Below are positions 11,318-29,702 of a stretch of 60,989 nt of DNA, piece after piece (the first letter of the stretch is position 1; every line of letters starts with the position of its first letter). The position numbers and the translations under genes are program-made. The notes under the pieces are model-generated. The model saw only the letters and a list, made by a program, of their open reading frames with translations. It was not told the origin of the DNA and did no database searches. Source of the DNA: an uncultured Dokdonia sp. (GTDB taxonomy: Bacteria > Bacteroidota > Bacteroidia > Flavobacteriales > Flavobacteriaceae); assembly GCF_937910895.1 (NCBI RefSeq), contig NZ_CALEMI010000141.1:1-60989 (forward strand), read 5' to 3'.

Positions 11318-13042
11318 TTAGCGTTTGATTAATTTTATAGTTTCTTGACCTTGATTTGTTGTAATCGTTGCCAAATAAATACCCGTTCTAAGGTTTGAAG
11401 CATTGATATCAAATGTAGTTGCATTTGGTGTTGCTAATGCTACTCTTCTACCTAGAAGATCATATACTGCTACAGATGTAATACTATCAGAACTTGTAGA
11501 TACTGTCCAACGATCTGTTGAAGGGTTAGGATATACCGATACATCTAATGATGTAAACTCTTCAGTACTAAGCGTTGTATTATTGTGTAAGTATAAGTTG
11601 TCTATAAAGATCGTTCTTGTTCCAGGTTCTGCTCCTGCAAGTGTCAATACAAATTGTCTCAAGGCATCTCTTTGTTGCGTAGCATCACCATCAACAAAAA
11701 CGGTAAGAGGTACATCTATAGATACCCACTCTCCAAAAGTAACAACAGGGTTTGTTAATTGGAAAAAAGATGTTTCTCCTCCATCACCAACATGGTTAGA
11801 CCATTTAGGATTTGCAATTAAGCCAGTAGACAAAGATGTATCTATCCAATAATCCATGTGGAAATGAGTCAATGCTGAAAGGTCAAGAGGCTCTCCCCAA
11901 TCTACTAATAAAAATTCTGAGGCTGGTTGGTTTAAAACTAACTGTTGTGTATTATCACCTTCAATTTGAATGGTTGTGATATCTTGAGTTCCTACACCAA
12001 ATGCTCCAAAAACAGTATTAGGCTGTTGTGTATATGCATCGCTAAAAAGAGAAAATACCGTATTTGGATCTCTCTCTGGAGGTGTTGGTGCTGCCACGGC
12101 TGGAAGAACTGGATCTGTGTTACCATTACCTTGTACTAAAGATACATTGTCAATCACTACAACCCCAGTAGCAGCTCCCATATCAAATAACACACGGCTA
12201 TCTGTAGAGCTAAAATTTGCTACGAGTTCTAATGAGAATGTTTGTGTTACATCGGTTACGGTAACTTCCATACTTTGGTTTGTAAAAGGATCTACAAAAA
12301 GACCTATTCCTGCAATCATCGTACGACTTCCTGTTGTTGCATCTGTAGATGCATCAAAAGTTAATGTAAAAGTTTGTCCCTCTGCAATATTGATTCCTCT
12401 TTGACTTAAGTTGACAGCGAAAGGTTCTCCAGCAGAAGCAACATCTACAAAGTTAAAACTGTTTCCTCCATCTGTTTGTACATTGAATCCATTTCCTTCC
12501 CATACAACCATTCCTTGTTCAAAATCACCGTTCTCTAGTAATTCATCTCCTCCTGTATTTTCATTTAAAGTAAGAGTAACGTTATCAATTACTACGACAC
12601 CAGTAGCAGCTCCCATATCGAATAACACACGGCTATCTGTAGAACTAAAATTTGCAACAAGTTCTAGTGAAAATGATTGAGTTACGTCTGTTACGGTAAC
12701 TTCCATACTTTGATTTGTAAATGGATCTACAAAAAGACCTATTCCTGCAATCATCGTACGACTTCCTGTTGCTGCATCTGTTGAAGCATCAAAAGTTAGA
12801 GTAAAAGTTTGACCTTGAGCGATATTAATTCCTCGCTGACTTAGGTTGACAGCAAAAGGTTCTCCAGCGGAAGCAACATCTACAAAATTAAAGCTATTCC
12901 CTCCATCTGTTTGGACGTTAAACCCATTTCCTTCCCATACAGTCATTCCTTCTTCGAAATCACCGTTGGTTAGTAAGTTTTGGGCTTGCATTGTAATTCC
13001 TCCAAGAAAAGCGAGAAGGAAAAATAAAGTAATTTTTTTCAT
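11318..13042 (-). CDS. T9SS-secreted protein with two laminarin-type carbohydrate-binding modules
   Basis: A 574-residue surface or secreted protein of the glucan locus. After a signal peptide (to MQAQ) come two near-identical modules of about 145 residues (about 20-165 and 167-310), each opening with NGDFE(E/Q)GM and closing with VVVIDNV. The jelly-roll pattern resembles CBM4/CBM9-like modules; binding to beta-1,3-glucan is inferred from the neighbourhood. A third, different beta-rich domain (about 325-490) and a type IX sorting domain (VSVYPNPSTD, then KLIKR) follow. Two further copies of the module lie in the lipoprotein at 19823-22111. No catalytic motif was seen, so it probably captures polysaccharide. 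It is transcribed away from the rest of the locus. Confidence 0.8.
   Translation of the reverse strand: MKKITLFFLLAFLGGITMQAQNLLTNGDFEEGMTVWEGNGFNVQTDGGNSFNFVDVASAGEPFAVNLSQRGINIAQGQTFTLTFDASTDAATGSRTMIAGIGLFVDPFTNQSMEVTVTDVTQSFSLELVANFSSTDSRVLFDMGAATGVVVIDNVTLTLNENTGGDELLENGDFEQGMVVWEGNGFNVQTDGGNSFNFVDVASAGEPFAVNLSQRGINIAEGQTFTLTFDASTDATTGSRTMIAGIGLFVDPFTNQSMEVTVTDVTQTFSLELVANFSSTDSRVLFDMGAATGVVVIDNVSLVQGNGNTDPVLPAVAAPTPPERDPNTVFSLFSDAYTQQPNTVFGAFGVGTQDITTIQIEGDNTQQLVLNQPASEFLLVDWGEPLDLSALTHFHMDYWIDTSLSTGLIANPKWSNHVGDGGETSFFQLTNPVVTFGEWVSIDVPLTVFVDGDATQQRDALRQFVLTLAGAEPGTRTIFIDNLYLHNNTTLSTEEFTSLDVSVYPNPSTDRWTVSTSSDSITSVAVYDLLGRRVALATPNATTFDINASNLRTGIYLATITTNQGQETIKLIKR
12105..12990 (-). repeat. 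Two tandem carbohydrate-binding module coding repeats
   Basis: Two units of about 440 bp encode almost the same protein sequence; long stretches also match at the DNA level, with scattered synonymous changes. They are likely substrates for recombination or gene conversion with each other and with the pair at 21250-22108. Limits are approximate. Confidence 0.75.
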
Positions 13043-13425: not shown

Positions 13426-16230
13426 CTAAAGGTTAATGAAGTAGTCGTTTAGATTGATATCTCTTGACAGATCAAGTTTTTTACGGAGCCTGTAACGTTT
13501 TATTTCAACGCTACGTGAGGAGATGTTTAGTAATGGAGCAATTTCTTTTGAAGACATATTCAACCGTAGATACACGCATAATTTTAAATCGTTTGCCGTT
13601 AATGAGGAGTGTATTTCTTTAACCTTTCTGAAAAAATCTTTATCCGCATGGTTGAATGCCTCTTCAAAGAAGTTCCAATCTTCTTCGTTTTCAATAGTCT
13701 TATCTACTAAAGATACAATTGCTTTTATATCTTCAACTTTTTCTGTTTTTAGCAAAGCACTTTTAATAGCATTCAGTGTCTTATTTTTATTAATCATGTT
13801 CATCGTAGAAACAGCAAGTTCTCTATTACGTGCATCAATATCTTGTTTAAGATTGGCATTATTCAACTCTACTATTTGCTTTTCACTCTCTAGCGTCTTA
13901 AGTTCCATATCTTTTTTTGTACGATTGAGAGCAAGTTCTTGTTGCTGTCTATAATATCGCTTATAGAATCCATTTAATAGTATAAATAGAAATATAGTTA
14001 ATATGATATATATTCCTATACTCAAATTAGATAAATACCAAGGACGTGCAATCGTAAAATTATATACTATTTCGTTACTAGTTTCTTTTCCTCCTACACG
14101 AGCTTTTGCTTTAAATGTATAAGAACCATGAGGTAAATTTTCAAAATGTATATTTGAATTGGAAGTCCAAGGACTCCAAAAATCATATAATCCGTCTAAT
14201 AAATAGGAGTACTCTGTTGTAAGAAATTTATCATATTCAGGAACACCAAAGGAAAAACTTAAGTTATTGTCAAAAGACGGAAACTCTATATTATCCTGAT
14301 AAGAGACCAATCTGGATTTTTCTCCTAAACGATGAACAGCAATAGACTTTAGGTTAATCTTATACTCTTGGATGGTATTTTCATTTTTAGATAGATCTAC
14401 AATAATATATCCATTTGAAGTTCCTAGCAAGTATTCATTTTCTCGTATGTTCACTAGGCTTTCATACCCTTCTACGGTATTTCGTAAACTAAATGGTATA
14501 GATATTTTTTTTACCGTGTATGCCCCATCAAGTTTATCTCGTGCAATTCTAATAAGATTTTCTTTTGTAAATGCCCATAATTTATCCTGATCTTCAATAA
14601 GTTTTCCTGTAATAAAAGTATCATCATTCAGCACATTACTCAGATTTTCTTCACGGATAAAGTTTCTCTCTTCAGCATTATATGTAAAAATCCCTTCTTC
14701 ATTTGAGTAAAAAATAGTATCGTCTAGTCTTGACAAACTAGAATGTTCCCCTATACTAATACCTGTATGTTTAAATACTTCTAAAGCTTGTTCATATTGA
14801 GGATCTATTTTTATTTCAAATACTCCCTTATATTCATGGTTCACAAGTATTTTGTTGTCTTTCGTGATTTCAAAATGCTTAGAAGAATTTACAAAGTTTT
14901 CAATTTTATTTCTAATACGCCATCCATCTGAAGATTGTTCTAAAACATACAAACCTCCATAATTTCCTTGTAAAAGAAGATTTTCTTTACCAGGAATTTT
15001 CTTAATATCCCAGGTTCCCTCAATATCTGCGATTAATCGTTGTTTGTCATTCTCAATAATATATGTTCCGTTATTATGACCACAAAAAAGAGTTCCATCT
15101 ATAAGACGTAAGTTCCATACTTGTCCTTCAGTTCCGGGCATTCTTATGAAATCTAGCGATGACGTTTCAGGCTTATAAAAGAGTCCTTGATTTGTACCTA
15201 AATACATATAACCATTTGCAAATGCTGAGGCATATATAGTTCCTAGCTTTCCACTTACGTCAATGTATTGATGAAAAGGGCTTTGACTATTGATACAATC
15301 AATACCAGCATCTAAACCAATCCATAAATTTTGATCCGTATCTTCTAATAATGCTAATGCCGTATTATTACTTAAACCACTCTCTTGTTTTATTTGATAT
15401 TCAAACGTACCATCTTTTGAGAGTTGGACAATTCCATTTTCAATAGTGCCTAAAACAATAGATTTATTTTTACGCTGAATAGCACTATAGACAGTAAACT
15501 GTTTTATAGATTCGTTATATGCTATATCCCAAGATGTTACACGTTGTCTATCTATACTATAAAATCCCTTATTTGCAGTGACGCCTATTAATTCTCCTTC
15601 AACATTAAAGAGATTAATCAAACGTTCCTGAATAAGTATAGGATTGGAATTAAAGAGATTTGTTTGTCCTTTCTCTATAGTATACAGTCCTTTATCTTTT
15701 ACCTGAAAAAATAAATCATCATCTACCAAAAATAAACGTACTACTTGCCCATCGGGGGTAATCATTTCTATTTTACCGTCTAAAGTATCATATATATAGA
15801 TCCGGTCTAAAGATTGGAAAAGCACATATTGTCCATAACGCTCAATATTCCAAATATGCTCATCTTCAATCATCGTTACTTGCTGCTTTTTTACAATAGA
15901 TGTGTATTGTAAAATTCCAGTCTCATCCTTTACCCAAACACCAAAATCCATGTAAGCCCCAGTGTATAATTTATCATCGACTGCCTTAACTCCTCTAACT
16001 ATGGTTCCATTAGGAGAAGGATACAAATCCCATTGCGCTCCATTAAAAACTAACAAACCTTTATTGTTTGCTACATATATAGTTTTATCTGGACCTTGGG
16101 TAAGCATCCAGTTCTGGTTGTCTGCATTGTATATATTAGGAGTATAATTTACAACGGGAGGAAGTCCTTGAGCATGTACAAAAGTCAAAGAAAATAGTAA
16201 AAACCCTATGCGTATTACAAACTGTATCAT
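13426..16230 (-). CDS. Sensor-regulator: propeller, Y_Y_Y domain, membrane helix, LuxR-type HTH
   Basis: A 934-residue one-protein signal transducer, probably the switch for the glucan locus. Order: signal peptide; periplasmic beta-propeller built from two-component-regulator repeats (about 25-640; for example NLWIGLDAGID); Y_Y_Y domain (about 665-740; YSYLLDGLYDFWSPW); one transmembrane helix (about 750-770); coiled coil (about 775-835); C-terminal HTH (about 870-934; MSSKEIAPLLNISSRSVEIKRYRLRKKL). There is no kinase or receiver domain, so DNA binding would respond directly to the periplasmic signal, as in SusR-like regulators. It is divergent from the barrel-fusion gene across a 466-bp gap. 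The 383 bp between its stop and the binding-protein gene hold no gene that I can see. Confidence 0.85.
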   Translation of the reverse strand: MIQFVIRIGFLLFSLTFVHAQGLPPVVNYTPNIYNADNQNWMLTQGPDKTIYVANNKGLLVFNGAQWDLYPSPNGTIVRGVKAVDDKLYTGAYMDFGVWVKDETGILQYTSIVKKQQVTMIEDEHIWNIERYGQYVLFQSLDRIYIYDTLDGKIEMITPDGQVVRLFLVDDDLFFQVKDKGLYTIEKGQTNLFNSNPILIQERLINLFNVEGELIGVTANKGFYSIDRQRVTSWDIAYNESIKQFTVYSAIQRKNKSIVLGTIENGIVQLSKDGTFEYQIKQESGLSNNTALALLEDTDQNLWIGLDAGIDCINSQSPFHQYIDVSGKLGTIYASAFANGYMYLGTNQGLFYKPETSSLDFIRMPGTEGQVWNLRLIDGTLFCGHNNGTYIIENDKQRLIADIEGTWDIKKIPGKENLLLQGNYGGLYVLEQSSDGWRIRNKIENFVNSSKHFEITKDNKILVNHEYKGVFEIKIDPQYEQALEVFKHTGISIGEHSSLSRLDDTIFYSNEEGIFTYNAEERNFIREENLSNVLNDDTFITGKLIEDQDKLWAFTKENLIRIARDKLDGAYTVKKISIPFSLRNTVEGYESLVNIRENEYLLGTSNGYIIVDLSKNENTIQEYKINLKSIAVHRLGEKSRLVSYQDNIEFPSFDNNLSFSFGVPEYDKFLTTEYSYLLDGLYDFWSPWTSNSNIHFENLPHGSYTFKAKARVGGKETSNEIVYNFTIARPWYLSNLSIGIYIILTIFLFILLNGFYKRYYRQQQELALNRTKKDMELKTLESEKQIVELNNANLKQDIDARNRELAVSTMNMINKNKTLNAIKSALLKTEKVEDIKAIVSLVDKTIENEEDWNFFEEAFNHADKDFFRKVKEIHSSLTANDLKLCVYLRLNMSSKEIAPLLNISSRSVEIKRYRLRKKLDLSRDINLNDYFINL

Positions 16231-16696: not shown

Positions 16697-19600
16697 ATGA
16701 AACATTATTTGTTAAGACTATTTCTATTTTTAGCCTCAACATCATTATTAGCTCAAGCAAATAAGGTCACAATTGCTAGTGCAGCCGATGGCAAAATACT
16801 AATGGTAGACGGACAAGAATTCATGATTAACGGTATGAACTGGGATTATATCCCTATTGGTCAAACCATCGCTACTACATCATATCAATTTTGGAATCAG
16901 TCTGATGATATTATCAAAGCTGCGATAGATCCTGAAATGGAACTTTTGAGAAATATGGGAGTAAATACCATTAGACAATATGTAGGGGTACCACCTAAAT
17001 GGGTACAATATATCTATGAAAAACATGGTATTTATACCATGATTAATCATGCCTTTGGTCGTTATGGTCTTACACTAGATGGCGCTTGGGAGCCTAACAC
17101 AGATTATGCAGATCCTCGTGTTAGAGAGGTTTTACTTAGGGAAACAACAGCCATGGCAAGGCAATTTAAAGATACACCTGGTATTTTGATGTTTCTTCTC
17201 GGAAATGAAAATAATTATGGCCTTTTCTGGGATGGTGCCGAAACAGAAGATATCCCAGAAGAAGATAGTAAGACTAAGCCACGCGCCAGAGCAATGTATA
17301 AGCTTTTTAATGAAGCAACTGTGGCTATGAAACAAATTATTGATTCACATCCAGTGGCTATATGTAATGGAGATTTACTTTTCTTAGATATTATAGTAGA
17401 AGAATGTAAAGACATAGATATTTATGGTACAAACATGTATCGAGGAGTTTCTTTTGGTGATGCCTTTGAAAGGGTAAAAAATGAATATGGAAAACCATTT
17501 ATGTTTACTGAATTTGGTGCCGATGCTTTTAATGCTGTGCAAAATCAAGAAGATCAGAAAGCACAAGCCTATTATATGGTGGGTAATTGGAAAGAAATAT
17601 ATGCAAATGCAGCTGGCTTAGGAAAAGCAGGAAATTCTATAGGTGGATTTACTTTTCAATTTAGTGATGGCTGGTGGAAATACGGTCAAACTACCAATCT
17701 AGACATTCACGATAATAACGCTTCTTGGGATAATGGAGGCTATCAAAGTGATTATGTTGAAGGTGAAAATAATATGAATGAAGAGTGGTTTGGGATCTGT
17801 GCAAAAGGACCAACTAATGAAAAAGGTCTTTATACCTTATACCCAAGAGCAGCTTATTATGCTTTAAAGGAAGCACATCAATTAAATCCGTATGCAGATG
17901 GTGCTACAGCAGAAACTGTTGAGAATTATTTTAATAATATCCAACTCATAGATGCTGTACTAAGAGCGCGAGGAGATAAAGCCGCATCTGGAAGTGGTTT
18001 GGGAGGTAATAAAGTTAAAATAAGTTCTTTAAGAGCTGAATTTACGACGTTCAATACTGGAGGTGAACGCATAACCACACCAGAAGATCGAGATCCAAAT
18101 GCAAATGTCTACCCTGATCAACTTGGCTTTGACAATATGGAATCTTACTATATTGGTGTAGAAGCCAATCCAACGCCAGGTTTAAGAGCTAATGTGGAAG
18201 TTAATATTTTAGGAAATGTTGCTGGAAATCCTATTGATGAAATTTTCTTTGAAAATAGAGGACGTCCTATAACTGTTGAGTCAAATAATGGAGATATCGT
18301 TCTTACAGATAATAATAGAGTCCAAATATATCAAGCTGAATTTGATTGGAACACAAAGTATACTAATGTAAAAGGATTCTATAGAACAGGACACTACCAT
18401 TGGGGGTATGAAGGAGATTTCTTTGGATTATATCCAGAAGCTAATTACGGCCCAAACATAGATATATATAATGGTGTGGCGCCTTTTGGTTTTGAATTTG
18501 AAGGAAAAAAAGCATTTAAAGGATTTAAAGTAGCATTTGGTCCAGAGCTATGGTGGGGTGCCAATCCTGCCCTCTTGGTCAAATATGAAAAACAAGTTGG
18601 AAATTACAAACTTGCAGGTATTTTTCACGAAGATATTTCAGAACAAGCTGGTGCTGGGGTAACTTCAGGAGCGATTCCTCAACCAAGAACACGAAGATTT
18701 ACAGCCTATGCACAACGTAAATTCGGTAAGTTTGATATTGAATTAGGAGGTATTTGGGGTGGACAACCTTTAAATGGAAGAGAATATCAAGTAGTAAAAA
18801 CAGATGCAGATGGAAATACCAATGTATTTGTAAATACCGTAAAATCTGATGATAATTGGGGAGGTAAAATAAAAATAAAATACACCGATGGTAAATTTAA
18901 TTGGTATGCGCAAAGTGCTGCTCAAGGCATAGTTGCTTTTGGAGGCGCAGATTATACTAAAACTTTTACTGGATGGAGATTAAAAGATAGCGGAAGCGGT
19001 AATCAATACAACTTCTTAACAGGTTTTACATACAATATAGGAAATCTGCAAATCGCACCAAACTTCTTATGGCAAGAACCATTAGTAGATCCTATTCCAT
19101 TAGGATCACCTGCGCCAGCTAGAGCTAGAAACATTCTCGCAGATCCTTTTGTTGTAAGAGCAAATAGAAGAACCACAGCAGGTGAAATTTTATTAACCTA
19201 TGATCCTACTCCAGGTTCTTGGTTTTATGAGTGGGATAATGACCGAGCAGAAGATGCTCCATTTGCAGCTAGTTTAGGGTTTGTATATCGTCATCTTCCA
19301 ACAACACAAGATGCTGCTATTGGATTCTTCGGAGATAGTCGTGAGCCTGTGGCTTTTGAATCTGCTCCTTCTGCACAAGATTTATGGGAATTTAATGGTA
19401 GAGTTGTTTCTAAATTCACGCCAGATTTCGGACTGATTGCAAACTTTTTTGGAGGAAATGGTCAGGCACGAGGAAGTGACGACAGAGTTATTTATAGATA
19501 TGGTACGGATGTACGTGTGATCTATAATAAGCTTAAATTAATGACAGAAGTAAAAATAGATGATTGGGGGCCTTTTGATTTTCATCGAGATTTTAACCTT

Positions 19601-19816
19601 ACTTTCCCACTACAATTTAAAGTAGATCTTTCTACGACCATAGGGAAGCAAGATTGGTTCATTTTACCAAATACCCGTATTGGTATTCGGTATACTTGGC
19701 GTTCTTTAGACAATTTCTCTCCGAGATATGAATTTCAAAGCCCAATTGACTTAGGATTCCCTAACGGAAGTGAGTGGGAAATCAGAACATACTTACATAT
19801 TAACATTGGAAAATAA
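16697..19816 (+). CDS. Clan GH-A glycosidase fused to an outer-membrane beta-barrel
   Basis: A 1039-residue protein with a signal peptide to about residue 19. A TIM-barrel glycosidase domain spans about 25-410, and about 600 residues of outer-membrane beta-barrel follow. The catalytic pair of clan GH-A is visible: acid/base Glu171 in LLGNENNYG and nucleophile Glu272 in FTEFGAD; the domain looks GH2- or GH5-like, but I cannot give the family. The C-terminal part is a series of alternating aromatic/polar strands with Asn/Gly/Asp turns (LWWGANPALLVKYEKQVG, RTYLHINIGK at the end), typical of porin-like barrels. I infer an enzyme and pore in one chain in the outer membrane. It is first in the rightward run; the next gene starts 6 bp later. 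Confidence 0.75.
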   Translation: MKHYLLRLFLFLASTSLLAQANKVTIASAADGKILMVDGQEFMINGMNWDYIPIGQTIATTSYQFWNQSDDIIKAAIDPEMELLRNMGVNTIRQYVGVPPKWVQYIYEKHGIYTMINHAFGRYGLTLDGAWEPNTDYADPRVREVLLRETTAMARQFKDTPGILMFLLGNENNYGLFWDGAETEDIPEEDSKTKPRARAMYKLFNEATVAMKQIIDSHPVAICNGDLLFLDIIVEECKDIDIYGTNMYRGVSFGDAFERVKNEYGKPFMFTEFGADAFNAVQNQEDQKAQAYYMVGNWKEIYANAAGLGKAGNSIGGFTFQFSDGWWKYGQTTNLDIHDNNASWDNGGYQSDYVEGENNMNEEWFGICAKGPTNEKGLYTLYPRAAYYALKEAHQLNPYADGATAETVENYFNNIQLIDAVLRARGDKAASGSGLGGNKVKISSLRAEFTTFNTGGERITTPEDRDPNANVYPDQLGFDNMESYYIGVEANPTPGLRANVEVNILGNVAGNPIDEIFFENRGRPITVESNNGDIVLTDNNRVQIYQAEFDWNTKYTNVKGFYRTGHYHWGYEGDFFGLYPEANYGPNIDIYNGVAPFGFEFEGKKAFKGFKVAFGPELWWGANPALLVKYEKQVGNYKLAGIFHEDISEQAGAGVTSGAIPQPRTRRFTAYAQRKFGKFDIELGGIWGGQPLNGREYQVVKTDADGNTNVFVNTVKSDDNWGGKIKIKYTDGKFNWYAQSAAQGIVAFGGADYTKTFTGWRLKDSGSGNQYNFLTGFTYNIGNLQIAPNFLWQEPLVDPIPLGSPAPARARNILADPFVVRANRRTTAGEILLTYDPTPGSWFYEWDNDRAEDAPFAASLGFVYRHLPTTQDAAIGFFGDSREPVAFESAPSAQDLWEFNGRVVSKFTPDFGLIANFFGGNGQARGSDDRVIYRYGTDVRVIYNKLKLMTEVKIDDWGPFDFHRDFNLTFPLQFKVDLSTTIGKQDWFILPNTRIGIRYTWRSLDNFSPRYEFQSPIDLGFPNGSEWEIRTYLHINIGK

Positions 19817-19822
19817 AAAATC

Positions 19823-22111
19823 ATGAAAAAGATATTCACAAAAAGAACAATTAGCTATTTGATGTCTGCCCTATTTCTGGTGATTAATTATGGCTGTCAA
19901 CCAGATGATGGGAATTTAGAAGAAGCAACATTTCCTACTATTGCAGACGTTTTCATAGACACATTTAGTGCTGGTTTACAATATGATGCATTTGGAGATT
20001 CTAGAGTAACTGCATTTGCTGTAGATACCGATGTTGTATTTCAGGGAAGCGCCGCTATGCGATTTGACATTCCAAATACCAACGACCCGCAAGGAGGCTA
20101 CGCAGGAGGTATATTTTCTGTTGAAGGCGGTAGAAATTTAACAAGTTATAATGTATTAACTTTTTATGCCAGAGCATCCCGTGGAGAAACGATAAACGAA
20201 ATAGGATTTGGTTTAACCTTTGGAGGAGAAGTGTATAGAACACAAGTTAATAATCTTCAAGTAGGCACCGAATGGCAAAAATACTTTATACCCATCCCTG
20301 ATGCTGCTAAACTTACACAAGAAAGCGGAATGTTATGGTATGCAGAAGCTGCAGATAATGGCGAATCTTACCAACTATGGCTAGATGAAGTGAAATATGA
20401 AAACTTAAATACTGTTCTTCTAGAAAGTGCTACCATTCTTAATGGAGTAGATCAAGTAACCGCAGCCTCAGCAGGAAATACAATTACCATAGACGGAACT
20501 TCTGCTACCTACAATTTACCTACAGGAACGTTACAAACCGTTACAACAACCCCTGCCTTTTTTGACTATACATCATCAAACGAATCTGTTGCTACTGTAA
20601 ATGAATTTGGTGTCGTATTAGTTCTAAGTAACGAAGGTTCAAGTATCATAAGTGCGACATTAGATGGTCAGGAAGCAGACGGTTCCATCACATTTATGGA
20701 TGTAGACGCATCAGGAAATGTGGATGATTCAGATGCAACTGAAGTAGCACTACCGCTAGGCTTTGAATCAACAATACTTAATTACAACCCTATAGGCTTT
20801 GAAGGTGCCGTTCCATCCATAGGAGCAAACCCTGTAGTAGGAGGTTTAAACAATAGCTCTAATGTATTAAGGTCTTTAAAAAGTGAAGGATCTGTATTCT
20901 TTGCAGGTCAGTTTATTGACCTAGATGTCCCTGTTGATTTTTCTACAGATCAAATTGTAAGTGCACTCGTACTCTCACCAAATGCTGGAACTCCTGTGAG
21001 AATCGCATTTGAAAACAGTGGTGATCCTGGTACTCAAATTAGAGTAGACGTAAGTACTACAGTGAGTAATCAATGGGAAGAATTAATCTTTGATTTTAGC
21101 GGATTAATCAATACTGGTGTAGCTTATGATAGAATGGTTGTCATTTTTGATATTGATGAAGCAAACCCAACTGCTGGTGATGGTTCTGTCTATTATATAG
21201 ATGATATTCAATTAACAGACGGTTCTGGCGGTGGCGGAAATATGGGTGGTGACAATTTATTGGAAAATGGTGACTTTGAACAAGGAATGACTGTATGGGA
21301 AGGAAATGGTTTTAATGTACAAACAGATGGTGGAAACAGCTTTAATTTTGTAGACGTAGCAACAGCAGGAAATCCTTTTGATGTCAACTTAAGCCAAAGA
21401 GGATTAGCAATTACCGAAGGTGATACATACACCCTTACCTTTGATGCTTCTACAGATGCTGCGACGGGTACCCGCACAATGCTCGCTGGAATAGGTCTTT
21501 TTGTAGCCCCTTTTACAAATGCCGTTTCAGAGATTAATATTACCGATACAACACAAACATTTACGGTGGAACTTACGGCTAATTTTAGCTCTTCAGACGG
21601 TCGTGTATTGTTTGATATGGGAGCAGATACTGGGGTTATCGTAATAGATAATGTTTCTCTAGTCGTATCAGATGGAGGAAACTCAGGTGGGGATTTCTTG
21701 TCAAATGGTGATTTTGAAGAAGGAATGACCGTATGGGAAGGAAATGGATTTAACGTACAAACAGATGGTGGAAACAGCTTTAATTTTGTAGATGTCGCTA
21801 CCGCTGGAAATCCTTTTGACGTCAACTTAAGTCAAAGAGGATTAGCCATTACCGAAGGACAAAGCTTTACCTTAACCTTTGATGCTTCTACAGATGCAGC
21901 AACAGGAAGTCGTACTATGATTGTAGGGATAGGTCTCTTTGTCGCCCCCTTTACCAATCAAAGTATGGAAGTGACTTTGACAGATGCCACGCAAACCTTC
22001 AATGTAGAACTCATCGCAAACTTCAGCTCGACAGATGGTCGCGTGCTGTTTGATATGGGAGCAGACACAGGGGTTGTCGTTATTGACAATGTCACGTTAA
22101 CATTAAACTAA
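19823..22111 (+). CDS. Surface glycan-binding lipoprotein with two carbohydrate-binding modules
   Basis: A 762-residue lipoprotein (lipobox NYGCQPDD). It contains an N-terminal carbohydrate-binding-like domain (about 35-195), a Big_2-like domain (about 200-290), another beta-rich domain (about 305-470) and two copies of the module seen in the 11318-13042 protein (about 478-620 and 630-762). No catalytic residues are evident. It is 6 bp downstream of the barrel-fusion gene and presumably works beside it at the cell surface, taking the role that SusD-like or SGBP proteins play in other loci. The module sequence (NGDFEQGMTVWEGNGF) is nearly unchanged between proteins. Confidence 0.8.
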   Translation: MKKIFTKRTISYLMSALFLVINYGCQPDDGNLEEATFPTIADVFIDTFSAGLQYDAFGDSRVTAFAVDTDVVFQGSAAMRFDIPNTNDPQGGYAGGIFSVEGGRNLTSYNVLTFYARASRGETINEIGFGLTFGGEVYRTQVNNLQVGTEWQKYFIPIPDAAKLTQESGMLWYAEAADNGESYQLWLDEVKYENLNTVLLESATILNGVDQVTAASAGNTITIDGTSATYNLPTGTLQTVTTTPAFFDYTSSNESVATVNEFGVVLVLSNEGSSIISATLDGQEADGSITFMDVDASGNVDDSDATEVALPLGFESTILNYNPIGFEGAVPSIGANPVVGGLNNSSNVLRSLKSEGSVFFAGQFIDLDVPVDFSTDQIVSALVLSPNAGTPVRIAFENSGDPGTQIRVDVSTTVSNQWEELIFDFSGLINTGVAYDRMVVIFDIDEANPTAGDGSVYYIDDIQLTDGSGGGGNMGGDNLLENGDFEQGMTVWEGNGFNVQTDGGNSFNFVDVATAGNPFDVNLSQRGLAITEGDTYTLTFDASTDAATGTRTMLAGIGLFVAPFTNAVSEINITDTTQTFTVELTANFSSSDGRVLFDMGADTGVIVIDNVSLVVSDGGNSGGDFLSNGDFEEGMTVWEGNGFNVQTDGGNSFNFVDVATAGNPFDVNLSQRGLAITEGQSFTLTFDASTDAATGSRTMIVGIGLFVAPFTNQSMEVTLTDATQTFNVELIANFSSTDGRVLFDMGADTGVVVIDNVTLTLN
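21250..22108 (+). repeat. Two tandem carbohydrate-binding module coding repeats
   Basis: Two units of about 420-440 bp separated by a short Gly/Ser linker. They encode almost the same protein but differ at many synonymous sites, and both match the pair at 12105-12990. Limits are approximate. Confidence 0.75.
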
Positions 22112-22245: not shown

Positions 22246-23106
22246 ATGAAAAATGTAATCTTAAAAAGTATCATCTGCGGCTGTCTTCTTTTTACGGCGT
22301 GGAGCTGTATTGATGATGAAGGCACTGATCTTGGTTTATCCAATCTTAATCTTGTATTTGAAGATAATTTTAATGGCGAAGCAGGGCAATCTATTAACAC
22401 AGATGTTTGGAACTTTGACATAGGAACAGGTTCTAACGGCTGGGGAAATAATGAATTACAGTATTATACAGACCGCCCAGAAAATATTTCACTAGATGGA
22501 GAAGGAAATATGGTCATTACCGCTCGTAGAGAAAATTTTCAAGGATCGCCTTTTACCTCTGCGAGAATAAATACTAAAGATAAAATCGAACAAAAGTACG
22601 GTCGTTTTGAAGCACGGATCCAATTACCAGGAGGACGCGGCATTTGGCCAGCCTTTTGGATGTTAGGCAATAATATTGAAACCGAGGCAGACGAAGATCC
22701 TGCAACGGTACAATGGCCATTCTGTGGTGAAATAGATATTACAGAACTTAGAGGACAAGAACCTTCAAAAAGCATTGGTAGCATTCACGGTCCTGGATAT
22801 TCTGCGGGTGGTGCCATATCTGGCGAATATGAACTTGAGGATGATCGCTTTGATGCAGGTTTTCATGTATTTGCGATTGAATGGACTCCAGATTTTATCG
22901 ATTATTTTATTGATGGCGTTCGTTTTAATAGAATAAATAAAGAAGATGTTCCAGAAGGAGGAGATTGGGTTTTTGATGACCAGCCGTTCTTTTTATTATT
23001 AAATGTTGCTGTTGGAGGTGCTTTTGTAGGCTTTCCAGTAGACTCAACCCCATTGCCTCAACGTATGATCGTAGACTATGTACGTGTGTACGAAATAGGA
23101 GAATAA
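22246..23106 (+). CDS. GH16 endo-beta-1,3-glucanase (laminarinase), lipoprotein
   Basis: Predicted to cut internal beta-1,3 bonds of laminarin at the cell surface. The 286-residue product has a lipobox at AWSC and one GH16 domain with WPAFWMLG and the catalytic ExDxxE motif as E162-I-D164-I-T-E167. This beta-bulge form, together with the flanking residues, is typical of laminarinases and lichenases. There are no extra binding modules, which fits the presence of separate binding proteins next door. The gap before it (134 bp) carries a palindrome copy. The 246 bp after it hold a CACCTCT/AGAGGTG hairpin at about 23313-23333 and no gene. Confidence 0.9.
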   Translation: MKNVILKSIICGCLLFTAWSCIDDEGTDLGLSNLNLVFEDNFNGEAGQSINTDVWNFDIGTGSNGWGNNELQYYTDRPENISLDGEGNMVITARRENFQGSPFTSARINTKDKIEQKYGRFEARIQLPGGRGIWPAFWMLGNNIETEADEDPATVQWPFCGEIDITELRGQEPSKSIGSIHGPGYSAGGAISGEYELEDDRFDAGFHVFAIEWTPDFIDYFIDGVRFNRINKEDVPEGGDWVFDDQPFFLLLNVAVGGAFVGFPVDSTPLPQRMIVDYVRVYEIGE

Positions 23107-23352: not shown

Positions 23353-26300
23353 ATGACAAAACAATCCATTTATATAGGTAACAAACGAGCTTCTTTTAAC
23401 CAACATGAAATTAAAGGAGAACTCATCACTTTTGATAACGAAGTATATTATAAGATTTCTAACAGTGATCAAATGAGACCTTTCTTTATGAGTCTTATTA
23501 GCAATTCAAATCATTGGATGTTTATCGCTAGTAATGGAGGACTCTCTGCAGGTAGGAAAGATTCCGATCATGCCTTATTTCCCTATTATACAGATGATAA
23601 AATCACTGAGAATTCTGAAAATACAGGGAGTAAAACCCTATTGAAAGTTCATAAAGAGGGAAAGGTGTTTTTATGGGAACCCTTCTCAGATAAATATGAA
23701 GGCATTTATGACATCACCCGAAATCTCTATAAAAGTAATCACGGGAATAAAGTCATTTTTGAAGAATACAATACCGATCTAGGACTTACCTATCGGTATC
23801 AATGGAATACAAGTGATCTATATGGTTTTGTTAAAAAATCTACGCTAGTCAATCATCTAGAAGATACTACTAAGGTAACCGTACTAGATGGGGTACAGAA
23901 TATCATTCCATATAGTGTTGGCGAAGACATACAAAAGACAAGTAGTAATCTTGTAGATGCGTACAAGCGAAATGAACTTGTTCCTGATTCAGGCGTTGGT
24001 ATTTTTGCACTTAGTGCGACCATTGTTGATAAGGCAGAACCCAGCGAGGCTTTAAAAAGTAACATCGTCTGGTCATTAGGTTTGGAAAATCCTAAATATC
24101 TAGTATCCTCCCTTCAGCTGGATACATTTAGACACGGAGAAGCCATCCGTCAGGAAACGGATGTAAAGGCTGAGCGAGGCGCTTATTTTGTGTATGAAGA
24201 AATGGAATTAGATCCTGATACAAAAAGAGAGTGGATGCTGATTGCCAATACAAATCAAACCATCAGTTCTATTATAGAAATTTCTGAAAAAATAAAGACA
24301 ACTCCAGACTTTATGGCGTTGGTTCAAGAAGATATTGAACTAGGAACTACTCACCTTTTAGAACTTGCTGGCGCTTCTGACGCGATGCAATTGAGTGCTA
24401 ACAAACTTAGAAATACACGCCATTTTTCAAATACCCTCTTTAATATTATGAGAGGAGGTATTTTTGATCAAAACTATCAAATTGAAAAATGGGATTTTGA
24501 AAACTATATAGCCAAAGCCAATACAACCGTTTTTGAAAAAGAAACAGCTACCATAAAAGCATTGCCTAGTGAATTTTCGCTCTTCCATTTAAAAGAAATA
24601 GCATCTCAAAGTGATGATGCCCATTTTAAAAGGTTGTGCTATGAATATATGCCACTTAAGTTTAGTAGAAGGCATGGAGATCCAAGCAGACCTTGGAATA
24701 AATTCTCAATCAATACTCGAAATGAAATTGATGGTTCTAAAGTATTAGATTATCAAGGTAACTGGAGAGATATCTTTCAAAACTGGGAAGCATTGGCACT
24801 CGCCTATCCTGAGTTTATTGAAAGTATGATTCATAAATTCTTAAATGCAACTACTTTTGATGGGTATAACCCATATCGTGTTACAAAAGATGGTTTTGAT
24901 TGGGAAACGATTGAAGAGGACAATCCTTGGGCATACATAGGCTATTGGGGAGATCATCAAATCATCTACTTACAGAAGTTTTTAGAGATCATCGAAAATC
25001 ACAACCCAGGGAAATTAGGAAGTTATTTTGATAAAGATCTTTTTGTTTATGCTAATGTTCCTTATAAAATAAAAAGTTATTCAGAAATACTTAAAAATCC
25101 AAAGGATACCATTGAGTTTGATTTTGATCTCGACGAAACAATACATTCGCGAAGAGCTTCTCTAGGAGTAGATGGTGCACTCTTGCAAAATGCAAAAGAT
25201 GCGATCTACAATGTCAATTTTATTGAAAAAATTCTGGCAACCGTACTCGCCAAAGTATCCAATTTTATTCCTGAAGCGGGAATCTGGTTAAATACACAAC
25301 GCCCAGAATGGAATGATGCCAACAATGCACTCGTAGGTAATGGAGTGTCTATGGTGACTTTATATTATCTAAGACGGTTCTTACATTTCTTTGGTGAGAT
25401 TATTGCTAAAAGTGCTATCAAAGAAACCCATATTTCTGAGGAATTAGAAACATTTTACACACGTGTTACCCTTACCCTAAGTACCCACAAAAACCTCTTA
25501 AAAGGAACGATTTCGGATACAGATCGTAAAACGATTTTAGACGGTTTAGGAATTCCAGCAAGTGAGTACAGAACAAAAGTATATCAAAATGCGTTTTCAG
25601 GCAAAAAGAAACTGATTTCGTTACATAGCATTTCTCAATTTATAACAACGAGTCTCGCCTATATTGAACATACAATAGATGCCAATAAACGAGAAGACAA
25701 TTTGTACCACGCATACAACCTCATGACCCTTACGGGTGAAAAAGAAGTGGCGATACGTCATCTGGAAGAAATGCTAGAAGGACAAGTAGCCGTATTAAGT
25801 TCTGGATATTTAAGTTCTAAAGAAAATCTTGACGTACTAGACGGTTTAAAAAATAGTGCCTTGTTTAGAGAAGATCAATACAGCTACCTCCTCTACCCTA
25901 ATAAAGAATTAGCTAAATTTTTAGACAAGAATCAAATCCCTCAAAAAGCTGTTCAAGCATCAAAACTCCTACAGCAACTTCTTGAAAACGGTAATACTCA
26001 AATCATTCAAAAAGACATCAAAGGAAATTATCATTTTAATGGTGGTTTTAATAATGCAAAAATGCTCAATGAAGCACTTGATACGCTCAGTAATACTAGT
26101 TATCAAAAACTTGTAGAAAAAGAACGCAAGCATTTGCTAGATACGTACGAAGCGGTCTTTAATCACAAAGCATTTACCGGACGATCAGGCACCTTTTTTG
26201 GATATGAAGGGCTTGGCTCTATCTACTGGCACATGGTTTCTAAATTACTATTGGCTACACAGGAATGTTGCTTAAAAGCCATCAGAGAGCATGCAGATAA

Positions 26301-26826
26301 AGAGACTATTGGTCGTTTGTTAGAACATTATTATGAAATAAATGAAGGTATTGGAGTACATAAATCTCCAAAGCTTTATGGAGCCTTTCCGACAGATCCG
26401 TATTCACATACACCAGCAGGCAAAGGTGCCCAACAACCTGGTATGACTGGGCAAGTTAAAGAAGATATTTTAAGTCGTTTTGGAGAATTAGGCGTCTTTG
26501 TGAGTGAAGGCAAACTTCAGTTTAGCCCAGATATGCTTCGTAAATCAGAATTTTTAGACACCGCACAGCCATTTGATTATACAGATATTCATCTTGAAAA
26601 ACAACGTATTAACATCCCAAAGAATTCTATAAGCTTTACCTATTGTCAAGTACCTGTTATCTACACTATTTCAGAAAAAACAGGAATAGAAGTACTTTTA
26701 AAAGACAGGAATACAAAGGCTTTTGAGCAATTAAGTTTAGATCAAGATACAAGTCATAAAGTATTCAACCGTACAGGAAATATCATTCAAATAAACGTAG
26801 CGATCACTGATGACTATCTAAAATAA
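23353..26826 (+). CDS. Beta-1,3-glucan phosphorylase, GH149-type
   Basis: A large (1157-residue) protein without a signal peptide, so cytoplasmic. It resembles inverting disaccharide/oligoglucan phosphorylases of the GH94/GH149/GH161 group: RRHGDPSRPWNKFS near residue 440, then EEDNPWAYIGYWGDHQ near 520, within a long (alpha/alpha)6 C-terminal region after an N-terminal beta-rich domain. With the surrounding laminarin genes and this length, GH149 (beta-1,3-oligoglucan plus phosphate giving glucose-1-phosphate) is the best fit; GH161 is the main alternative. I do not assign the catalytic Asp by number. Phosphorolysis would save ATP on imported laminari-oligosaccharides. Confidence 0.78.
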   Translation: MTKQSIYIGNKRASFNQHEIKGELITFDNEVYYKISNSDQMRPFFMSLISNSNHWMFIASNGGLSAGRKDSDHALFPYYTDDKITENSENTGSKTLLKVHKEGKVFLWEPFSDKYEGIYDITRNLYKSNHGNKVIFEEYNTDLGLTYRYQWNTSDLYGFVKKSTLVNHLEDTTKVTVLDGVQNIIPYSVGEDIQKTSSNLVDAYKRNELVPDSGVGIFALSATIVDKAEPSEALKSNIVWSLGLENPKYLVSSLQLDTFRHGEAIRQETDVKAERGAYFVYEEMELDPDTKREWMLIANTNQTISSIIEISEKIKTTPDFMALVQEDIELGTTHLLELAGASDAMQLSANKLRNTRHFSNTLFNIMRGGIFDQNYQIEKWDFENYIAKANTTVFEKETATIKALPSEFSLFHLKEIASQSDDAHFKRLCYEYMPLKFSRRHGDPSRPWNKFSINTRNEIDGSKVLDYQGNWRDIFQNWEALALAYPEFIESMIHKFLNATTFDGYNPYRVTKDGFDWETIEEDNPWAYIGYWGDHQIIYLQKFLEIIENHNPGKLGSYFDKDLFVYANVPYKIKSYSEILKNPKDTIEFDFDLDETIHSRRASLGVDGALLQNAKDAIYNVNFIEKILATVLAKVSNFIPEAGIWLNTQRPEWNDANNALVGNGVSMVTLYYLRRFLHFFGEIIAKSAIKETHISEELETFYTRVTLTLSTHKNLLKGTISDTDRKTILDGLGIPASEYRTKVYQNAFSGKKKLISLHSISQFITTSLAYIEHTIDANKREDNLYHAYNLMTLTGEKEVAIRHLEEMLEGQVAVLSSGYLSSKENLDVLDGLKNSALFREDQYSYLLYPNKELAKFLDKNQIPQKAVQASKLLQQLLENGNTQIIQKDIKGNYHFNGGFNNAKMLNEALDTLSNTSYQKLVEKERKHLLDTYEAVFNHKAFTGRSGTFFGYEGLGSIYWHMVSKLLLATQECCLKAIREHADKETIGRLLEHYYEINEGIGVHKSPKLYGAFPTDPYSHTPAGKGAQQPGMTGQVKEDILSRFGELGVFVSEGKLQFSPDMLRKSEFLDTAQPFDYTDIHLEKQRINIPKNSISFTYCQVPVIYTISEKTGIEVLLKDRNTKAFEQLSLDQDTSHKVFNRTGNIIQINVAITDDYLK

Positions 26827-26910: not shown

Positions 26911-28206
26911 ATGAAAACAACAAAACACATCTTAGTCTTATTCCTTTTGACGATGTGTGTTTTATCTTGTAAAGACCCTATGAAAGCTCCCAAAACACCT
27001 ACGCCACAAACAACACCTAAAAACGTGACAGCACAACAAATATTAGGAAATCCAGATTATTTAGCCATTTCTTATGGTGGATATCGCATGACCACTCGTG
27101 ATAGTCAACCCTCTGTAGCAGCATTAAAAAATGATATGAAATTGCTTCACGCAATGAATATTCGATTTTTAAGAACCTACAATGTGCAACTAGCACATGC
27201 ATCCAATGTCCTTAAAGCCATCCAAGAATTAAAGCAAGAAGATCCAAGCTTTGAGATGTATGTGATGCTAGGTGCTTGGATAGACTGTATAAATGCGTGG
27301 ACAGGTCATACACCAAACCATAACGTAGAAAGTCCTCTTAACGTAGCAGAAATTGGTAGAGCCGTTGCGCTGGCACAACAATACCCAGACATTGTCAAAG
27401 TTATTGCCGTAGGTAATGAAGCAATGGTGAAATGGGCTACTGCCTATTACGTACAACCCGATGTTATTTTAAAATGGGTCAATCACCTACAAGAACTTAA
27501 AAACAAAGGAGAACTCTCTAAAGATCTATGGATTACCAGTTCTGATAATTTTGCCTCTTGGGGAGGTGGTGAAAAACAATACCACGTCAAAGCCCTTGAA
27601 GAACTTATTGAAGCGGTAGACTATCTTTCAGTTCACACCTACCCTATGCACGATACGCATTACAATCCTGCATTCTGGGGCGTATTTGGCAAAGAAAACG
27701 AAGGCACTAAAATAGAAAAAATAGATGCCGCGATGGAGCGTGCAAAAAGATACGCAATGACGCAAGTGGATAGTGTTGCAAATTATGTTAAAAGCTTAGG
27801 GATTGACAAACCTATTCATATTGGCGAAACAGGCTGGGCAAGTGCTTCTAATGAGCTGTATGGTGCCAACGGCTCCAAAGCGACAGATGAATATAAGGAA
27901 GCGCTATACTATAACCACATGCGTGATTGGACCAATAAAAATGGAATGTCCTGCTTTTACTTTGAAGCCTTTGACGAACCGTGGAAAGATGCTCACAATC
28001 CTGGGGGATCAGAAAATCATTTTGGCTTATTTACCGTGGACGGGAAAGCAAAATACGTACTTTGGGAACAAGTAGATCAACATACTTTTAAAGGCTTAAC
28101 GCGTGGTGGAAATCCAACAACCAAGACATACAATGGAGATAAAAAAGCATTACTAGCAGATGTACTTGTGCCTCCAACAAAAGGAAAGGTCTTAATACAT
28201 AAATAA
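26911..28206 (+). CDS. GH17 family beta-1,3-glucanase, lipoprotein
   Basis: A 431-residue lipoprotein (lipobox CVLSCKD) with a Pro/Thr-rich linker and a GH17 catalytic domain from about residue 45. Clan GH-A catalytic residues are visible: acid/base Glu170 in AVGNEAMV and nucleophile Glu306 in HIGETGW. GH17 enzymes are endo- or exo-acting beta-1,3-glucanases, some with transglycosylating activity; which applies here cannot be read from sequence. GH30 starts 2 bp after its stop, so the two are translated together. It is distinct from the two shorter cytoplasmic-type GH17 domains further down. Confidence 0.85.
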   Translation: MKTTKHILVLFLLTMCVLSCKDPMKAPKTPTPQTTPKNVTAQQILGNPDYLAISYGGYRMTTRDSQPSVAALKNDMKLLHAMNIRFLRTYNVQLAHASNVLKAIQELKQEDPSFEMYVMLGAWIDCINAWTGHTPNHNVESPLNVAEIGRAVALAQQYPDIVKVIAVGNEAMVKWATAYYVQPDVILKWVNHLQELKNKGELSKDLWITSSDNFASWGGGEKQYHVKALEELIEAVDYLSVHTYPMHDTHYNPAFWGVFGKENEGTKIEKIDAAMERAKRYAMTQVDSVANYVKSLGIDKPIHIGETGWASASNELYGANGSKATDEYKEALYYNHMRDWTNKNGMSCFYFEAFDEPWKDAHNPGGSENHFGLFTVDGKAKYVLWEQVDQHTFKGLTRGGNPTTKTYNGDKKALLADVLVPPTKGKVLIHK

Positions 28207-28208
28207 TC

Positions 28209-29702
28209 ATGAAACTAATAAAATTTTTTAGTGGACTTATACTTGTGACAACAATAATGGCTTGCTCAAAAGATAACACGCTTCAGGTTAAAGTTTACGA
28301 AACTTCAGCCAAGGGAAATAATTTAACTTTAGTGAATACGGTTTCTCAAGCAGAAGCGACAGAACAAATTACACTATTTCCCGAAAAGGAATTACAAACC
28401 ATTACAGGATTTGGAGGCGCTTTTACAGAGTCTTCTGCCTATTTACTCAATCAATTAAGTAAGAAGAATAGAGATACCATTATACAAGCGTATTTTAGTA
28501 AGGAAGGAGCCAATTATTCGCTTACCAGAACCCACATGAATTCTTGTGATTTTTCTCTATCACAATACTCGTATTCACCGGTGGTAGATGATATGGAATT
28601 GGAGCATTTTACCATCCAAGAAGATAAAGAGGATTTAATCCCAATGATTAAAGATGCCATGGTCGCTTCTGAAGATGGATTTAAATTATTTGCATCCCCT
28701 TGGACAGCATCCCCTTGGATGAAAGACAATAACGAATGGGTGGGTGGAAAACTGTTACCGAAATACTACGATACCTGGGCGTTATTTTTTTCAAAGTATG
28801 TAGATGCTTACAAAGCGGAAGGTATCGATATATGGGGATTTACCGTTGAAAATGAACCGCACGGAAATGGAAACAATTGGGAAAGTATGCACTTTACACC
28901 CGATGAAATGACCAATTTTGTACAAAATCACTTAGGCCCCAAACTAGAAGCAGACGGGCATGGAGATAAAATAATATTAGGCTACGACCAGAATAGAAAA
29001 GGCTTAAAAGAATGGGTAGACTCTATGTATGCCAACGAAGAAACTTCAAAATATTTTGACGGCACTGCGATACATTGGTATGAAAGCACCTTTGAAGTAT
29101 TCCCAGAAGAATTACAATATGCCCACAACAAAGCACCTAACAAACTACTCATAGAAACCGAAGGCTGTGTAGACTCTGAAGTCCCTGCTTGGAAAGATGA
29201 TCTATGGTATTGGAGTAAAGAAGCAACCGATTGGGGTTGGGATTGGGCTGCCGAAGAAGACAAATACTTACACCCAAAATATGCACCTGTTAATCGCTAT
29301 GCCAGAGATATAATAGGTTGCCTGAATAATTGGGTAGATGGCTGGGTAGACTGGAATATGGTACTGGATAAACAAGGCGGTCCTAACTGGTTTAAAAACT
29401 GGTGTGCGGCTCCTATCATTGTAGATCCAGATGCAGACGAGGTCTATTTTACACCACTCTATTATACCATGGCGCATTTTAGTAAATACATCCGTCCAGG
29501 TGCAAAAGTAATTGAGCTAGAAAAACCAGAAGACAAAAAGTTTATGGTCACTGCGGCAAAGAATCCTGATGGGTCTATTGCTGTAGTTGTATTTAATGAA
29601 GAACCTGTAGCCCGCGATTTTAAACTGACACTTCGAGAAAAAACAATAAGCCTTCACATTGAAGGGCAAGCATTACAAACCATTATAATCCCGAATCTTT
29701 AA
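28209..29702 (+). CDS. GH30 beta-glucanase, probably beta-1,6-specific, lipoprotein
   Basis: A 497-residue lipoprotein (lipobox TIMACSKDN). The GH30 domain opens with GFGGAFTESSAYLLNQLS and has acid/base Glu216 in VENEPHG; the nucleophile is in LLIETEGC (Glu316 or, more likely, Glu318). A small beta-sandwich closes the C-terminus, as usual for GH30. GH30 enzymes in laminarin loci commonly remove beta-1,6-linked glucose branches, which would prepare the main chain for GH16/GH17; that specificity is inferred from context. Close coupling to GH17 upstream suggests a fixed ratio of the two. Confidence 0.87.
   Translation: MKLIKFFSGLILVTTIMACSKDNTLQVKVYETSAKGNNLTLVNTVSQAEATEQITLFPEKELQTITGFGGAFTESSAYLLNQLSKKNRDTIIQAYFSKEGANYSLTRTHMNSCDFSLSQYSYSPVVDDMELEHFTIQEDKEDLIPMIKDAMVASEDGFKLFASPWTASPWMKDNNEWVGGKLLPKYYDTWALFFSKYVDAYKAEGIDIWGFTVENEPHGNGNNWESMHFTPDEMTNFVQNHLGPKLEADGHGDKIILGYDQNRKGLKEWVDSMYANEETSKYFDGTAIHWYESTFEVFPEELQYAHNKAPNKLLIETEGCVDSEVPAWKDDLWYWSKEATDWGWDWAAEEDKYLHPKYAPVNRYARDIIGCLNNWVDGWVDWNMVLDKQGGPNWFKNWCAAPIIVDPDADEVYFTPLYYTMAHFSKYIRPGAKVIELEKPEDKKFMVTAAKNPDGSIAVVVFNEEPVARDFKLTLREKTISLHIEGQALQTIIIPNL

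Follow-up and report, generated by a model that had tools for sequence, protein, structure and literature searches.

How might glucan fragments cross the outer membrane of a bacterium whose laminarin gene cluster encodes neither SusC nor SusD? Polysaccharide loci of Bacteroidota normally use this pair, a TonB-dependent glycan importer in which SusC forms a barrel of 22 strands and a lipoprotein acts as lid, together with separate enzymes. We approached the question through a stretch of 60,989 nucleotides from an uncultured Dokdonia sp. (RefSeq assembly GCF_937910895.1, contig NZ_CALEMI010000141.1, positions 1 to 60,989; henceforth the window), which carries a putative cluster for laminarin (i.e., beta-1,3-glucan). 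No match to SusC or SusD was found on the window's contig, and no plug domain in the 22 window open reading frames (ORFs) scanned against Pfam (out of 53 of at least 100 aa, and including all 10 of at least 500 aa). The cluster is not a canonical polysaccharide utilization locus (PUL), i.e., a SusCD pair with carbohydrate-active enzymes (CAZymes). At its head stands a gene that joins a glycosidase to a predicted outer-membrane barrel, and we lean, by no great measure, towards this fusion being the means by which a laminarin cluster without SusCD brings glucan across the outer membrane.

A glycosidase and a predicted outer-membrane barrel in one chain

The ORF at 16697-19816 (+) encodes 1039 aa in a single frame without interruption. 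A first-pass annotation, made from the letters of the window alone, had read it as a glycosidase and an outer-membrane barrel in one polypeptide, a reading that the domain search (PF02836), AlphaFold2 and Foldseek bear out, with the barrel as a prediction. The protein is organised as follows:

16697..19816 (+), the whole fusion (1039 aa): a glycosidase domain of clan GH-A followed by a predicted C-terminal outer-membrane beta-barrel
16697..16756 (+), putative signal peptide, approx. residues 1-20, without lipobox (judged from sequence by eye; the model has a helix at 2-18)
16766..17881 (+), TIM-barrel domain of clan GH-A, spanning approx. residues 24-395 and containing Glu171 and Glu272 (PF02836, invariant glutamates, fold and profile matches to GH158(Pro))
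17909..17989 (+), linker helices, residues 405-431 (DSSP of both AlphaFold2 models; low confidence in the barrel-half model)
18014..19807 (+), predicted outer-membrane beta-barrel, approx. residues 440-1037, about 24 strands (AlphaFold2 strands, Foldseek, strand amphipathy)

To place the fusion in a wider context, we surveyed its homologues. It was found at full length in 19 of 99 related genomes (own genome included), with no internal stop in any of the 19, and five further genomes had a weak match to the N-domain only. In a wider survey at least 552 of 593 candidate stretches encode a relative; the 80 loci that were kept, which are the basis of all locus counts below, span, by the titles of their records, Flavobacteriia, Saprospiria, Cytophagales and Bacteroidales, and both halves are fused in every one of them (frames of 1025-1103 aa). 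In a phylum-wide sample the barrel profile matched in 35 of 394 genomes, and 33 of the 36 matches sit in frames of 1028-1084 aa (a statement on frame length only, as the N-halves were not aligned). No free-standing barrel gene was seen among these matches, the three outside long frames being partial (G328, a second piece in G298, and G215 with two stops). A split pair was considered in G093 (L024 and L105) and rejected: the 449-aa protein there corresponds to the GH-A domain in the alignment, and none of its neighbours on the contig matches the barrel. One locus (L053) places the fusion on a 5.8-kb contig of a record titled as a Thermoanaerobaculia metagenome-assembled genome, possibly a binning error. 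A lipobox-like pattern occurs in only 6 of the 80 homologues, in none of them followed by two or more acidic residues.

The catalytic half matched PF02836 (the GH2_C TIM barrel) at residues 80-281 with 24.9 bits against a cut-off of 21 when the whole protein was searched, and with 28.0 bits when the N-half was searched alone, while a match of the fusion protein to PF11790 stayed under its cut-off. PF02837 and PF00703, which we take to be the sugar-binding and Ig-like domains preceding the GH2 TIM barrel, gave no match in the fusion at E <= 0.1 or in the N-half at E <= 1; the NCBIfam scan of the fusion protein returned nothing at E <= 0.1. With the whole model as query, Foldseek ranked GH158(Pro) first, including a laminaritetraose-soaked crystal, and GH2 glucuronidases next. 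A profile search of the PDB with the N-half gave the uncharacterised 6pal (E = 2.7e-4), then GH158(Pro) (E = 5e-4), with GH2 enzymes close behind. The stretch KVTIAS near the N-terminus, a candidate TonB box, was not read as one because it lies within the first hairpin of the GH domain, as it does in 6pal.

Both glutamates that the first-pass annotation had named as the catalytic pair of clan GH-A, Glu171 (in GNE) and Glu272 (in TEFG), are invariant in all 74 aligned sequences, and the profile search pairs them with the GNE and TEFG motifs in the solved structure of GH158(Pro). This alignment (A2), like alignment A4, includes 73 of the 80 loci (all except L056, L068, L081, L090, L097, L099 and L100). 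The same two residues are invariant in all six sequences of another alignment, which includes the G093 protein and four single-domain relatives; compared with the latter, the fusion's GH domain has extra stretches around residues 57-78, 120-138, 183-196 and 327-360. GH158 and GH2-C-type GH-A glycosidases supply the fusion's top fold match, are among its best profile matches and have the same two glutamate motifs, but the sequence relation is weak and the fusion adds a barrel. We class the catalytic half as a GH-A glycosidase between GH2-C and GH158, with a putative activity that is read from the locus around it.

For the barrel half we relied mainly on structure prediction. AlphaFold2 gave a mean pLDDT of 74.2 and a pTM of 0.51 for the whole chain, and 76.6 and 0.75 for residues 398-1039, with about 24 long strands over residues 440-1037 (a list picked by hand from DSSP of the 398-1039 model, omitting three short loop hairpins). 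The best 50 of 313 Foldseek matches of this half (E <= 0.001) were outer-membrane barrels (MOMP, BtuB, OprC, AlgE, sucrose porin and others), with low TM-scores to these closed barrels of 0.16-0.41. The strands show a hydrophobic alternation of 0.97 (0.48 in shuffled strands), and the linkers between them have a mean of 22.6 residues after odd strands and a median of 2 after even ones, a pattern that, in the model, is typical of a barrel whose two ends lie on the periplasmic side. The predicted structure shows the general features of outer-membrane barrels, i.e., an even strand number, amphipathic strands, short inner turns and long outer loops. No relatives of this half were found by sequence in Pfam, NCBIfam or the PDB, including known porin families and solved barrels; the single PDB profile match was an antibody chain (E 0.69). 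Fold and topology are predictions from the model.

Outer loops 3, 4, 7 and 11 are 91-96% conserved compared with 74% for the strands, while the outer loops taken together (75%) are not above the strands. Two long inner turns (836-856 and 982-993) are conserved at 87% and 78% and may possibly form a dock for the enzyme. The first-pass annotation had the enzyme cutting glucan at the mouth of its own pore; a place at the outer mouth is not supported by the predicted topology: because both predicted barrel ends are periplasmic, the enzyme would by default be periplasmic too (unless the linker threads the pore), a placing that depends on the predicted strand order.

A head module in the place of SusC and SusD

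As the first-pass annotation had it, the fusion heads a rightward run opposite a regulator. Its neighbours are:

11318..13042 (-), CBM4_9 protein with Por_Secre_tail, a paralogue of the lipoprotein's CBM part (Pfam); link to the system uncertain
13426..16230 (-), divergent Reg_prop/Y_Y_Y/LuxR-type regulator (Pfam, NCBIfam)
19823..22111 (+), lipoprotein with two CBM4_9 stretches and an acidic CQPDD start typical of surface export (Pfam)
22246..23106 (+), GH16 lipoprotein with an acidic CIDDE start, putative surface laminarinase (Pfam, NCBIfam)
23353..26826 (+), GH149 beta-1,3-glucan phosphorylase (NF058639, 1805.5 bits, cut-off 1150)
26911..28206 (+), GH17 lipoprotein, putative periplasmic beta-1,3-glucanase (Pfam; relatives without acidic lipobox tail)
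28209..29702 (+), GH30 glucosidase/glucanase (Pfam, NCBIfam)
29855..32194 (+), GPH-type MFS transporter carrying a fused GH17 domain (a single frame matching PF13347 and PF00332)
32197..33105 (+), GH17 protein (Pfam)

In four related genomes without the fusion (G022, G025, G034 and G042) we found adjacent genes for regulator, SusC and SusD; a lipoprotein and a large GH16 come next, and then GH149, GH17, a separate GH-A protein, GH30, MFS and GH17. The tail GH149-GH17-GH30-MFS-GH17 is common to both kinds of locus. The head consists of regulator, fusion, lipoprotein and small GH16 in one, and of regulator, SusC, SusD, lipoprotein and large GH16 in the other, where the relative of the GH-A N-domain is a separate protein of 336-347 aa (in our own ORF calls) beside GH30 after GH17. 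There are departures from this order: G025 has two GH17 ahead of the GH-A protein, G034 an additional 619-aa frame, and G042 a protein after SusD without lipoprotein match, an additional GH30 and an MFS that is a GH17 fusion. The lipoproteins of these four loci match that of the window weakly (58-137 bits, or a match to the related CBM4 protein), and three of their GH16 have 553-561 aa compared with 286 in the window. In a further genome, G049, a SusD was seen where the stretch fetched ends, and its GH149 has a PF02836 lipoprotein beside it.

Some loci carry both types (e.g., L052, L096 and L161), with SusC-SusD and its own lipoprotein first and fusion, lipoprotein and small GH16 after it; in L052 and L096 the SusC-SusD module also has its own GH16 of about 545 aa. 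Because each set comes with its own lipoprotein (and, in these two, its own GH16), we take the exchanged unit to be the head module. Comparison of these loci supports the view that the fusion's head module holds the place of the SusC-SusD module in related loci, and the fusion would be the sole member of its module able to cross the outer membrane.

A relative of the lipoprotein is the next gene in all 75 loci with at least 1.5 kb downstream, GH16 lies within three genes in 64 of 65 loci (5 kb downstream), GH149 is near in 52 of 63 (9.5 kb downstream), and a relative of the regulator lies at most two genes upstream in 45 of 66 (4 kb upstream). Across the 99 genomes, 19 have the fusion and 26 have GH149 (both 17, fusion only 2, GH149 only 9, neither 71).

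Lipobox signals allowed us to place the partner proteins. An earlier report (PMC5080379) describes acidic residues behind the lipid cysteine as the mark of surface lipoproteins in Bacteroidota. Defining an acidic tail as at least two acidic residues among the five after the lipobox cysteine, we found one in 46 of 62 downstream lipoproteins and 35 of 47 GH16, as opposed to 1 of 33 GH17 and 3 of 13 GH30, with proteins lacking a recognised lipobox left out (16/78, 20/67, 14/47 and 23/36, respectively) and with the caveat that a few of the picked cysteines fall within the signal peptide. Given these counts, glucan capture and first cutting probably take place outside and the GH17 and GH30 steps inside, with the fusion between them.

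Several further features of these loci were observed. In many homologous loci the MFS and GH17 parts of the gene at 29855-32194 are separate genes. The CBM4_9 modules of 11318-13042 (-) and 19823-22111 (+) are closely similar (77-78% in their best local match), which suggests recent duplication or gene conversion between the T9SS-tailed protein and the lipoprotein. One locus (L160, in G004) is minimal, comprising a CBM4 protein, the fusion, the lipoprotein and GH16; GH149, GH17, GH30 and MFS are absent from the 20 kb fetched. In another (L104, 1-9800) a 3253-aa frame, with modules about 51% identical to CBM4_9 proteins, lies immediately upstream of the fusion.

A candidate entry step and its alternatives

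We propose that the neighbouring GH16 would cut glucan at the surface and that the adjoining CBM4_9 lipoprotein would capture the fragments, which a wide, sugar-selective barrel of about 24 strands would pass to the periplasm. There the GH-A domain, on the periplasmic end of the barrel, would cut or trim them on emergence, and entry would be one-way with no need of TonB. The breakdown would be completed by GH17, GH30 and the MFS-GH17 fusion; each of the two membranes in the pathway would carry a transporter-glycosidase fusion, with MFS-GH17 as the inner-membrane counterpart. The fusion itself, its conservation, the active-site residues, the synteny and the head-module exchange can be read from sequence, and we infer transport, substrate, periplasmic placing, trapping by hydrolysis and the lipoprotein's part as partner.

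The alternative that survives best, which we nonetheless regard as unlikely, is that the linker threads the barrel lumen as in an autotransporter and the glycosidase is displayed at the cell surface, so that the barrel is an anchor and not a porter. Type Va autotransporters consist of a signal peptide, a passenger and a C-terminal barrel of about 12 strands; the fusion has the same order, with the enzyme as passenger and linker helices ahead of the first strand, but about twice as many predicted strands. In addition, no autotransporter family in Pfam (such as PF03797, presumably the autotransporter barrel domain) matches it at E <= 0.1, and four of its outer loops are highly conserved (see above). 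Surface cutting is already covered by the GH16 with an acidic lipobox tail next door, and an anchor would leave unexplained why the module stands in the SusC-SusD position elsewhere.

It is also rather improbable that the fusion is an accessory to SusCD-type import (e.g., an enzyme whose attached pore lets small oligosaccharides leak through) and not the main porter, an explanation that draws on cases of coexistence. SusC and SusD stand beside the fusion in 5 of the 51 complete loci (i.e., those with at least 9.5 kb on both sides), all upstream and on the same strand; a 150-bit limit was used, SusC being cut by the locus edge in L054 and L096, and a 69-bit SusC-like frame in L032 was not counted. 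By coordinates, SusC lies within 15 kb of the fusion in 4 of the 19 fusion genomes (G019, G026, G051 and G061). Seven of 51 fusion genomes carry an orthologue of the SusC of G025 (at least 49% identity); these seven belong to the window's family and comprise 3 of 19 among the related genomes (G019, G026 and G036) and 4 of 32 in the phylum-wide sample (the 35 barrel-matching genomes without the own genome, G215 and G328). These searches used E limits of 1e-150 and 1e-220 and scored at most the best 33 and 25 candidates per genome. Some SusC over the cut-off is retained by 17 of 18 fusion-bearing relatives, and all 16 further fusion genomes tested, inside and outside the family, carry one or more SusC of whatever type.

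By contrast, none of the nine fusion genomes of the window's genus has an orthologue of this SusC (best hit 35% identical), and best-candidate scoring found none in the own genome, whose three SusC over the cut-off are on contigs C31, C65 and C138, none of them the window's. The SusC on C65 was considered as a laminarin porter and rejected: its locus (L114) reads SusC-SusD-PF10091-GH3 and probably serves beta-1,2-glucan, since we take PF10091 to be GH144, a beta-1,2-glucan family. The neighbours of the SusC on C31 and C138 were viewed at the level of ORFs. One genome, G073 (98% complete), has the fusion with no SusC over the cut-off and no SusD match, and 11 weaker TonB-receptor-like matches. 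Apart from a conjectured preference for short laminarin chains, the first-pass suggestion that the fusion could replace SusCD stands in part: its head module occupies the position of SusC-SusD in related loci and the window has neither gene, but replacement is not universal, because the two coexist in five complete loci.

That the barrel instead serves exopolysaccharide export, as an AlgE/PgaA-like pore with its own glycosidase, appears very improbable. AlgE is among the Foldseek matches and export pores are known to work with glycosidases, yet no glycosyltransferase or synthase family was found in the 22 scanned ORFs, and the cluster consists of a phosphorylase, hydrolases and a GPH-type sugar transporter. 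An assembly or annotation artefact joining two genes can be dismissed for practical purposes, given 80 of 80 fused loci, 19 of 19 full-length matches without internal stop and 33 of 36 barrel matches in long frames.

Several observations weigh against the fusion as entry step. Transport and enzyme activity are predictions, as is closure of the barrel, in a model of moderate confidence (whole-chain pTM 0.51) in which the active-site loops 172-186 and 327-362 have low confidence and 2 of 24 strands (440-457 and 911-923) are no more amphipathic than shuffles. What is exchanged is the whole head module and not SusC-SusD alone, with lipoprotein and GH16 only weakly similar between the two types, and 21 of 66 loci lack the regulator at most two genes upstream. 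Given the orthologues in 7 of 51 genomes and SusCD beside the fusion in 5 of 51 loci, the fusion may add to SusCD, and outside the window's family a diverged laminarin SusC could escape the orthologue search. G073 has no GH149 match and its fusion contig is 5.8 kb long. Finally, for four GH149 loci (in G072, G083, G089 and G097) the 20 kb fetched contain no SusC-SusD pair and no fusion. These four (L156-L159) are GH149 clusters with GH16 and GH30, and L157 has a weak SusC-like frame (39 bits).

Relation to known systems and implications

The fusion resembles SusC/SusD in its position, which is between a related regulator and the common GH149-GH17-GH30-MFS-GH17 tail, and in its large outer-membrane barrel, which is predicted here. 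It differs in having a glycosidase and about 24 predicted strands instead of 22, with no match to plug PF07715, CarboxypepD_reg or TIGR04056 at E <= 0.1. As in sugar-specific porins of the LamB/ScrY type, the proposed barrel would be passive and sugar-selective, and a sucrose porin is among the Foldseek matches; no sequence relation to these porins was found, and the fusion has about 24 predicted strands and an attached enzyme. The MFS-GH17 fusion of a Formosa laminarin locus, described as suggesting a coupling of hydrolysis and uptake (PMC6246565), likewise joins transporter and glycosidase in one chain, as does the gene at 29855-32194, but it is a helical transporter of the inner membrane with a different GH family.

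Earlier descriptions probably include the same gene and locus type, judging from gene order and not from sequence: in the accessible portions of two reports, laminarin PULs of Muricauda have a 'GH2' gene upstream with GH16 and GH149 (PMC13188888), and GH149 clusters without susCD-like pairs are mentioned (PMC5827456), neither description including a barrel or a transporter role. Clusters without SusCD have been filed as 'CAZyme clusters', with no outer-membrane step stated in the parts available (PMC5827456, PMC10108472). In our literature search, which covered titles and the beginnings of abstracts and left subscription papers and preprints mostly outside, none described the fusion; the locus type is already known, and the glycosidase-barrel fusion appears undescribed within the literature searched.

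These results raise a broader idea, which we find plausible while placing it short of probable: Bacteroidota would have a second class of outer-membrane glycan importer that works independently of TonB. It would combine a 24-strand sugar channel, a covalently attached periplasmic glycosidase that cuts the emerging glycan for one-way uptake and a surface lipoprotein partner, and many Flavobacteriia, Saprospiria, Cytophagales and Bacteroidales would use it instead of SusCD for beta-1,3-glucan. Laminarin is among the largest algal carbon pools and a major sugar of the ocean, and SusC/D genes are the common basis for predicting its uptake by Bacteroidota. If the fusion is the outer-membrane step of clusters without SusCD, SusCD-based predictions of laminarin use would miss it, and G073 and the window's Dokdonia relatives would be test systems for uptake without a laminarin SusCD. 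A widespread importer would then have been hidden under a plain glycosidase label, and with it an overlooked route of laminarin uptake.

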